From Bacteroidota bacterium (GTDB lineage: Bacteria > Bacteroidota > Bacteroidia > AKYH767-A > 2013-40CM-41-45): a stretch of 64,000 nucleotides of DNA. The notes under the pieces are model-generated. The model searched no databases, was not told the origin of the DNA, and saw nothing but the letters and a program-made list of their open reading frames with translations. This document shows, in pieces, positions 32,273-60,720 of this stretch (its first letter is position 1; each line of letters begins with the position of its first letter). The translations under genes were made by a program, and so were the position numbers. The stretch lies in contig SHNE01000049.1 in NCBI GenBank assembly GCA_004295015.1, forward strand, positions 62,001-126,000, written 5' to 3'.

Positions 32273-32346
32273 TGATCCCGGCGGGAATCGAACCCACAAC
32301 CTACTGCTTAGAAGGCAGTTGCTCTATCCAATTGAGCTACGAGATC
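32273..32346 (-). tRNA. tRNA-Arg (anticodon TCT)
   Basis: A 74-nt cloverleaf reads on the minus strand. Acceptor GATCTCG pairs with CGGGATC (one G-U), D arm GCTC/GAGC, anticodon loop CTTCTAA within an ACTGC/GCAGT stem, T arm GTGGG-TTCGATT-CCCGC, discriminator A. CCA is not encoded. It is the last tRNA of a three-gene operon. Confidence 0.93.
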
Positions 32347-32393
32347 CGGTTAAAAATTCTGCCTTTCGTCTCATCAATCAAATTTCAAAAAAG

Positions 32394-32468
32394 TCGGGGT
32401 GGCAGGATTCGAACCTGCGACCTCATGGTCCCAAACCATGCGCGATGACCGGACTACGCTACACCCCG
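32394..32468 (-). tRNA. tRNA-Pro (anticodon TGG)
   Basis: A 75-nt cloverleaf on the minus strand. Acceptor CGGGGTG pairs with CACCCCG, the anticodon loop TTTGGGA sits in a CATGG/CCATG stem, and the T arm has the GCAGG-TTCGAAT-CCTGC sequence with discriminator A. CCA is not encoded. It lies between tRNA-Ser and tRNA-Arg. Confidence 0.94.
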
Positions 32469-32568
32469 AGAGATTTCTTTCAACACCTTGATATCAAAGT
32501 ATTTGAAAGAGAATCTTGAAATTTTATATAAAATGAAGAACGATTTAAAACAGAGCAATTAATGAGCG

Positions 32569-32655
32569 CGGTGATGGTGGGATTCGAACCCACGGTACGA
32601 TTACTCGTACGACAGTTTAGCAAACTGTTCCTTTCGGCCTCTCAGGCACCTCACC
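32569..32655 (-). tRNA. tRNA-Ser (anticodon GCT)
   Basis: An 87-nt tRNA on the minus strand with the long variable arm of class II tRNAs (CGTACGA/TCGTACC hairpin). Acceptor GGTGAGG pairs with CATCACC except for one internal G-A mismatch. The anticodon loop TTGCTAA sits in an ACAGT/ACTGT stem, the T arm is GTGGG-TTCGAAT-CCCAC, and the discriminator is G, the serine identity base. First tRNA of the operon. Confidence 0.93.
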
Positions 32656-59273: not shown

Positions 59274-59315
59274 GTGCTGCTTGAATCCGGCAATGGGTAT
59301 TATTAAATTGAATAT

Positions 59316-59348
59316 TTGTTTAACATATCAAAAAAGGTTCTACTTTTG
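59316..59348 (+). promoter_or_regulatory. Consensus promoter of the Cas6-like gene
   Basis: TTG (59316-59318), a 22-nt spacer and TACTTTTG (59341-59348), an exact TAnnTTTG, lie about 60 bp before the start codon. The Cas6-like gene should therefore form its own transcription unit, independent of the glycan operon. Confidence 0.65.
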
Positions 59349-59407
59349 TAAAAGCTATATAATAGCAGGGGATTTTTTTAGCAATATCTTTTTCACGTAT
59401 AGTAGTT

Positions 59408-60178
59408 ATGAGAATAAAAATTTCGTTTTTGAAGGTCCACGGTAGCAGTGGAACCGTTCCACTTCACCACCAAAAAATCATTTCCGCCTTTTTAGAGGAG
59501 GTCATCAGGGAGATGTCTGTGTCTTCGGACAATTACAGCTTTTCTTCACTGAAGGGAACTTCAAAGGTTCAAACCGGACAGATTCGTTTCTTGTCTTCCA
59601 AAGTATCTTTGGTGCTCTCTGCTCCGGAAGCAGATTTTATTGATGAATTGGTCAAGAAAATTTTTGATCGACGCCTTGTAAGCTTCGCTAAGTTGACACT
59701 CGTGCCGAAATCATTTGAAGTTATACCTGATCCGGAATTTAATACTCAGATGAAATATGTGTGTATTTCTCCGATGGTTCCTCAGGAAGCCTTCCTTGCT
59801 GATGAATCAGGAAATTTGCCTGAGCCCTTAGATCCAAGAGCACAGGAGTATTCAGATATGTTTTACGATGCAATCCTTGATCGCATGGAGAAAGCAGGAT
59901 TTACTGAAGATCAAATAAGCAAGTTCGCTGAATTTGAAATCATCCCTGATCCAACCTACATCCAGAAAATCGCTGATACACACAAAAAATTCGCACGTAT
60001 CTATAAGAATAACCTGAATCAAACGATATACGGTTATCTCTTACCTTTCACTTTGCACGCACACCCGCAAGTCCAGAAATTTATATGGGAATGTGGAATT
60101 GGTCTCTACACAACGCAAGGATACGGAATGGTTGATATTGTTGGCGGCTCTGCACCTGAGACTGAATCAGACAATTGA
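59408..60178 (+). CDS. Orphan Cas6-family (RAMP) protein, probably lacking the catalytic histidine
   Basis: A 256-residue protein with the Cas6 pattern. The N-terminal strand MRIKISFLKV is followed by the helix start VPLHHQKIISAFLEEVI (17-33), then YSFSSLKG (43-50, usual FTFSxL), CISPMV (119-124), DPRAQEYSDMFYDAI (142-156), and C-terminal GYLLPFTLHAHP plus the Gly-rich loop GIGLYTTQGYG (230-240) that contacts RNA in Cas6. In typical Cas6 enzymes about 30 residues with the catalytic His separate the first helix from the FTFSxL strand. Here there are about 10, without His. His20/His21 are present but not in that position. No cas gene or CRISPR array is nearby. Confidence 0.75.
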   Translation: MRIKISFLKVHGSSGTVPLHHQKIISAFLEEVIREMSVSSDNYSFSSLKGTSKVQTGQIRFLSSKVSLVLSAPEADFIDELVKKIFDRRLVSFAKLTLVPKSFEVIPDPEFNTQMKYVCISPMVPQEAFLADESGNLPEPLDPRAQEYSDMFYDAILDRMEKAGFTEDQISKFAEFEIIPDPTYIQKIADTHKKFARIYKNNLNQTIYGYLLPFTLHAHPQVQKFIWECGIGLYTTQGYGMVDIVGGSAPETESDN

Positions 60179-60198: not shown

Positions 60199-60720
60199 TC
60201 ATTCGAACTTCGAAATCTTAGCGAACTTGACTGATTGATGCTCTCCGTTTACTACTGCAATCAATATGTAAACACCCATGTCCAAATTTTGAACGGGTAT
60301 TTCCCTGCAAAGAATATTTGGGTTGAAAGAGTTACTGCAAGAAATGCTCGAATAGTATTCACTGAATTTTAATTTACCGAAGGCATCGTAAATATAAAGT
60401 GTTACGGGACTGATTGTCTTTAAAAAAATACTGAAGGTTCCCGGGAAATTTGAAACTGCGGTAGGGTAAAAGTTGATGTCGAAGTTTCCGCAAACAGTGC
60501 TTGTTGTCCAGCTTCCATCCAGAAGACCGCCCCAATAATAGGCAGCACATTCATTTTTATACGTGACATTATCACAACCGCAAACCGGTTCATAAGTCGT
60601 GCCGCATGGCCAGAATTTATCTTCAATTCGGGTACTGTCGACACAATAGCTGAACTGTTGTTGTGCATGGCTCTCGCTTAGTCCAAGAACCAGCATACAG
60701 GCAATCAGTAGAATTCTCAT
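60199..60720 (-). CDS. Secreted Kazal-type inhibitor with T9SS sorting domain
   Basis: A 173-residue secreted protein: signal peptide (about 1-19), a Kazal-like domain (about 25-75) with CGTTYEPVCGCDNVTYKNEC, i.e. the C-x-PVCG-x-D-x-x-TY-x-N-x-C signature, and a C-terminal type IX sorting domain (about 80-173: FYPTAVSNF and GVYILIAVVNGE). Kazal domains block serine proteases with a reactive loop around the second cysteine. The protein would be exported by the Por system and may guard the cell surface against proteases. Convergent with the Cas6-like gene (20 bp). Confidence 0.8.
   Translation of the reverse strand: MRILLIACMLVLGLSESHAQQQFSYCVDSTRIEDKFWPCGTTYEPVCGCDNVTYKNECAAYYWGGLLDGSWTTSTVCGNFDINFYPTAVSNFPGTFSIFLKTISPVTLYIYDAFGKLKFSEYYSSISCSNSFNPNILCREIPVQNLDMGVYILIAVVNGEHQSVKFAKISKFE

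Follow-up and report, generated by a model that had tools for sequence, protein, structure and literature searches.

Introduction

In the Cas6 CRISPR endoribonuclease of P. furiosus (PF01881/TIGR01877; PDB: 3I4H/3PKM), which has a two-RAMP fold and a G-x-G-x5-G-x-G loop, the catalytic residues are Tyr31, His46, and Lys52 (PMC3652601). PfuCas6nc (PDB: 3UFC) and PhCas6nc (PDB: 3QJJ) are both archaeal and have been reported as non-catalytic or inactive (PMC3652601, PMC3727216); inactive PhCas6nc still binds RNA (PMC3727216), and PfuCas6nc has a catalytic Cas6 paralogue. SsoCas6 (Sso1437), like some other crenarchaeal Cas6 proteins, has no catalytic His and is nevertheless an active crRNA-processing enzyme that uses basic residues within CRISPR immunity (PMC3652601). 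A Streptomyces I-E derivative with a STAND NTPase keeps cas6 in a multi-gene cas5-6-7-8 module that has neither an array nor adaptation genes (PMC8730458).

The gene described here lies in a 64,000-nucleotide stretch of DNA (the window) and encodes a stand-alone protein that shares the two-RAMP fold, the glycine-rich loop, and full-length profile homology with the P. furiosus type of Cas6, but lacks its Tyr, His, and Lys together with the helix bearing the His, has no CRISPR neighbours, is distributed like a core gene, and carries D243 in place of the Lys that follows the loop in CRISPR Cas6. The clade to which it belongs finds its best profile and fold matches in the two archaeal Cas6nc proteins and meets, as far as sequence alone can tell, the Cas6nc criterion of having no catalytic triad. 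With the crenarchaeal proteins it has the absent His in common, and with the Streptomyces derivative the retention of cas6 without an array or adaptation genes, although here it is a lone core gene and not part of a module. Its recurrent upstream partner is the gene for YchF/Ola1, an unrelated P-loop ATPase. Our literature searches, which did not cover preprints or most subscription papers, returned no description of a stand-alone Cas6 clade. To our knowledge, reuses of Cas proteins have mostly been confined to defence, transposition, and competition between mobile elements.

Results

Gene call and promoter

The original prediction had given the interval 59316–60178. Position 59316 falls in the promoter and is not coding; the open reading frame runs from 59408 to 60178, and its ATG is taken as the start because relatives share the same N-terminus, MRxKIxF. 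That the gene has a promoter of its own also needed qualification: a Bacteroidetes-type promoter is present (Table 1), but its pattern matches the window five times against 3.7 expected, which is chance level, and we rejected it as evidence when taken alone. Support comes from recurrence in relatives, since 58 of 81 sequences have TAnnTTTG ahead of the gene, compared with 13 in shuffles, mostly 75–91 nt before the start codon.

Table 1. Positions of the stand-alone Cas6-like gene, its sequence features, and its surroundings within the window.
Feature	Position	Strand	Basis
Three-tRNA cluster	32273-32655	-	Rfam
Bacteroidetes-type promoter, TTTG-N22-TACTTTTG	59315..59348	+	Pattern search; TAnnTTTG recurrence in relatives
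Stand-alone Cas6-like gene, 256 aa	59408..60178	+	ORF, profile searches, AlphaFold2 model; in the window's order, one copy in 41/42 genomes
P18-L-H20-H21-Q22 codons, start of helix 1	59459..59473	+	Alignment
Deletion site, residues 35-43, where CRISPR Cas6 has an extra His-bearing helix	59510..59536	+	Alignment, models
F45-S-S-L-K49-G50 codons	59540..59557	+	Alignment
K193..R197-I-Y199 codons, basic/aromatic motif specific to stand-alone proteins	59984..60004	+	Alignment
Glycine-rich RNA-binding loop codons G230-G232-G238-G240, then D243	60095..60136	+	Alignment
Convergent neighbour, secreted-looking protein with Kazal-type inhibitor domain	60199-60720	-	Pfam

The protein has a Cas6 fold

A match to Cas6 along the length of the protein had been proposed from its motifs, all of which we found, and several methods agree with it. 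PF01881 (Cas_Cas6_C) matches at 58.8 bits (E = 1e-15), well above its cut-off of 23, and the PADLOC Cas6b profile matches over the full length (E = 5e-29). Not every profile was so clear: TIGR01877 reaches 56.1 bits, 2.5 bits below its equivalog cut-off of 58.65, and PF10040 matches neither this protein nor anything else in the window's genome. TIGR01877 does match all 51 stand-alone relatives sampled. A profile built from these 51 found 3UFC as the best of the solved Cas6 structures (E = 5e-18), and hhalign of the stand-alone clade with a CRISPR Cas6 profile gave 99.9% at E = 1.3e-35. The AlphaFold2 model of the window protein (pLDDT 92.2, pTM 0.87) has the Cas6 structures 3QJJ, 3UFC, 5YI6, and 3I4H as its top Foldseek matches, with TM values of 0.70–0.81 and E < 1e-14. 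The window protein is thus a genuine Cas6-fold protein with two RAMP domains, and a non-Cas6 fold, which would have refuted the original prediction, was not what the structure prediction returned.

The rank of the structural matches was also considered as proof that the protein is non-catalytic and was rejected; a His-bearing CRISPR paralogue likewise has 3UFC on top, so fold rank does not show that catalysis has been lost. The two groups are told apart by sequence profiles, with active PfuCas6 matched at 2e-27 by CRISPR Cas6 and only at 1.7e-4 by the stand-alone clade.

Loss of the catalytic triad

Stand-alone proteins were aligned with 38 other Cas6 proteins that served as the CRISPR set: 14 second copies from Cyclobacteriaceae (which we take the family to be from its named carriers Algoriphagus, Belliella, Echinicola, Cecembia, and Roseivirga), 21 that come from a different class of the same phylum, and three others. 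Some of the 24 references from outside Cyclobacteriaceae were assigned to CRISPR by sequence without a check of each locus. The position of the catalytic His is a gap in all 71 stand-alone proteins and a His in 37/38 CRISPR Cas6. The triad Tyr is kept in 3/51 stand-alone proteins versus 37/38, and Lys or Arg occupies the position of the triad Lys in 5/51 versus 38/38. The models agree with the alignment: in the CRISPR paralogue (AlphaFold, pLDDT 88) an extra helix at residues 37–46 bears the catalytic His, whereas in the window protein the helix of residues 22–34 runs directly into a strand. The reported shortening of the His segment is therefore a true deletion, and the Tyr and Lys positions are lost as well.

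The RNA-binding loop has been kept. Its four glycines, G230, G232, G238, and G240, are invariant in 71/71 stand-alone and 38/38 CRISPR proteins, and after them D243 is found in 71/71 stand-alone proteins against a frequency of 0.03 in CRISPR Cas6, which has Lys there. Further residues are fixed in the stand-alone clade and rare in CRISPR Cas6, namely H21 (70/71 versus 0.11), K49 (71/71 versus 0.08), G50, S63, P100, S149, D150, R197, and Y199.

A missing His alone would not prove inactivity, because SsoCas6 cleaves RNA without one (PMC3652601). With all three triad positions and the His helix gone, the alignment suggests that the stand-alone proteins are likely not to cut RNA, which remains unproven. 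The main rival is an endoribonuclease which is still active, having rebuilt its site from H21 with K49, R197, and Y199, and which processes a housekeeping RNA outside CRISPR. These four residues are indeed fixed in the clade and rare elsewhere, and Cas6 active sites are plastic enough for SsoCas6 to work without His (PMC3652601, PMC3727216). Not only are the three canonical positions and the helix bearing one of them lost, however, but H21 aligns with the conserved [HY] of P-x-x-[HY]-Q at the start of helix 1 and not with the catalytic His. We consider a rebuilt site unlikely without being able to exclude it, so that of the two possibilities first put forward, a non-cutting RNA-binding protein or a relocated active site, the former is better supported.

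Independence from CRISPR

The original prediction had noted that the window has no cas genes or array. No CRISPR array was found in the window or at any stand-alone locus in a scan of 1.8 Mb of locus sequence, and the same scan did find arrays, only at loci chosen for CRISPR Cas6 or Cas1. Profile searches of the window's genome, which is 99.98% complete, detected no Cas1, Cas5, type III RAMP, or PF10040 match (class 2 effectors were outside their scope); the type I or III cas operon whose presence elsewhere in the genome would have undone the prediction was not found. Conservation in related genomes without CRISPR, proposed as a check, is strongly borne out within the order: 41 of its 42 genomes carry the cas6-like gene, whereas nine have Cas1, one has type III RAMPs, and none has Cas5. 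In the one genome that has type III RAMPs, Cas1 lies inside an open frame of 881 aa that may be a fusion.

Another rival is a Cas6 that serves arrays or type III systems elsewhere in the genome in trans, as a part of ordinary CRISPR immunity. Most type III systems apparently rely on Cas6 in trans (PMC12669027), and Cas1 is present in 8/41 carriers of the gene in the window's order and in 54/129 in Cyclobacteriaceae. The latter figure compares with 5/20 non-carriers and is not an enrichment beyond chance (Fisher p = 0.22). Several Cyclobacteriaceae genomes moreover have a second, distant Cas6 match (E about 1e-4 to 1e-7); the Tyr and His of the canonical motif are present in all 14 second copies examined, and many of the genomes concerned have Cas1 at a distance of about 1–12 kb. 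Carriers with CRISPR can thus, to judge by these motifs, have a separate triad-bearing Cas6 in a cas operon. Taken with the lost triad, the array-free stand-alone loci, and the lack of these cas genes in the window's genome, this largely refutes a role in trans, which we regard as very improbable.

A stand-alone relative in Bernardetia (NZ_CP147018.1, 328852-329664) is labelled “CRISPR-associated endoribonuclease Cas6” and has no cas genes within 6 kb, which is likely a misannotation.

Distribution and evolution

The gene is single copy in all 11 genomes of the window's family and in 41/42 of its order, or 33/33 when only good-quality genomes are counted. Outside the order one copy is present in 129/149 Cyclobacteriaceae genomes, in 145/292 genomes from 13 families of the Cyclobacteriaceae order (E ≤ 1e-20, nearly all < 1e-50), and in 3/3 genomes of a third order. 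“Orphan”, the term originally chosen, is accurate as to the missing link with cas genes but too weak for what is a single-copy core gene across a large part of Bacteroidia. Certain families near Cyclobacteriaceae lack the gene, which shows that it is not universally essential. The window's order is known from MAGs of wastewater, lakes, and soil. The uncultured order's version of the gene, 51% identical to the window, also occurs on a contig (CALQOD010000006.1) of a MAG titled “Chitinophaga pinensis”, probably a wrong name.

In a PMSF tree built from 51 stand-alone proteins and the 38 of the CRISPR set, the stand-alone proteins all fall on one side of a single branch (support 100/99, recovered in all 200 bootstrap trees), with the caveat that the third order, whose branch is long, meets the CRISPR side. 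The tree is unrooted, so that descent from a CRISPR Cas6, as opposed to an old sister line, is inferred by parsimony: archaeal and bacterial CRISPR Cas6 share the triad, which makes its loss on the stand-alone branch the parsimonious reading.

Nine close pairs of stand-alone genes gave dN/dS values of 0.007–0.05, indicating strong purifying selection. Within Cyclobacteriaceae the median identity of the stand-alone protein (87.9%) is on a par with that of YchF in the same genomes (84.1%), whereas between orders it diverges faster (37% versus 65.5%). A degenerating cas6 left behind after the loss of CRISPR could account for a deletion that takes out the catalytic segment and for a genome in which no cas genes were found. 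Such a remnant would not, however, be kept as an intact single copy in nearly every member of its own order, in most Cyclobacteriaceae, and in a third order, nor be as conserved as YchF within Cyclobacteriaceae, and we rejected this explanation as refuted by dN/dS, synteny, and near-universality. A mobile gene was rejected too, with no copy among 2.9 million viral contigs and a single plasmid record, from Bernardetia (0.6 Mb).

Genes for defence tend to be patchily distributed and to evolve fast. A non-cutting Cas6 acting in defence or regulation against phages or plasmids, and not in housekeeping, has to be considered given that the Cas6 family is part of the defence machinery and that some cas modules without arrays, such as the Streptomyces I-E derivative, are predicted to act in defence (PMC8730458). 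Vertical inheritance as a single copy, very slow evolution, the lack of viral copies with only the one plasmid copy, and the absence of defence-gene neighbours at the loci examined all speak against it, and we hold it to be improbable.

Gene neighbourhood

A search of named genomes found ychF directly upstream and on the same strand at all 44 loci from Cyclobacteriaceae and their close kin. The same adjacency is seen in 7 of 20 further genomes from the order to which Cyclobacteriaceae belong, in 3/3 genomes of the third order, and in at least eight genomes of the window's order, and so spans three orders and about twelve families. It is missing from most genomes of the window's order and from the window's own, where the upstream gene encodes a sugar transferase. 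As the remaining neighbours vary, the pair looks ancestral and repeatedly broken. The gap between the two genes is about 35–240 nt with a conserved promoter in many genomes, and since this TAnnTTTG element would give the cas6-like gene a promoter of its own, the pair looks like a neighbourhood and not a strict operon.

Inspection of this gap by eye, without a covariation test, revealed only AT-rich sequence, the promoter, and, ahead of the start codon, a short block that is conserved; a structured RNA was looked for in this way and rejected. In Cyclobacteriaceae the block (about GTTTAACTTTTCATTTTTA) sits just before a conserved GTG start and could be an element for translation or autoregulation. 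Rfam detects no known RNA near the gene, the three tRNAs of the window being far away. On the other side, a relative of the Kazal-domain protein adjoins the gene in seven genomes examined, the window included, and in 12 genomes of the window's order a transglycosylase gene (PBP1-like by motif) follows directly.

Discussion

We consider it probable that the protein is a Cas6 domesticated as an RNA-binding factor that does not cut, and that its gene has become a vertically inherited single-copy housekeeping gene, with ligand and function inferred. Under this proposal the ancestor would have been a CRISPR crRNA-processing endonuclease, the direction of descent being itself an inference, which lost the His helix together with the triad Tyr and Lys and retained the glycine-rich loop, while a new set of invariant basic and aromatic residues became fixed in the clade. 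The protein would then most likely bind a cellular RNA without cutting it, although neither binding nor the lack of cleavage has more than inferential support. The RNA in question may belong to, or act at, the translation apparatus, as an rRNA, a tRNA, or mRNA leaders; this is suggested by the recurrent place of the gene right behind ychF. YchF of E. coli makes contact with IF3 and with the small subunit of the ribosome, and it is a repressor of leaderless mRNA translation (PMC8138138). The fuller picture of a CRISPR RNase turned into a core, non-cutting translation factor working with YchF, in Cyclobacteriaceae as well as in families related to them and in uncultured orders nearby, is possible but tentative.

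The finding also bears on annotation. The database label is misleading for at least one copy, which is called a CRISPR nuclease without having cas neighbours, and as TIGR01877 matches every stand-alone member sampled (51/51), surveys that count Cas6 to estimate CRISPR may be inflated in these lineages. The cultured carriers Algoriphagus, Echinicola, Belliella, and Roseivirga make the hypothesis testable. If it is true, hundreds of species have fixed a lone Cas6 as a slowly evolving core gene, which would be an unusual way for a CRISPR component to be domesticated for ordinary cell biology. The protein would then be a candidate global RNA-binding protein in Bacteroidetes, a phylum in which little is known about RNA biology.
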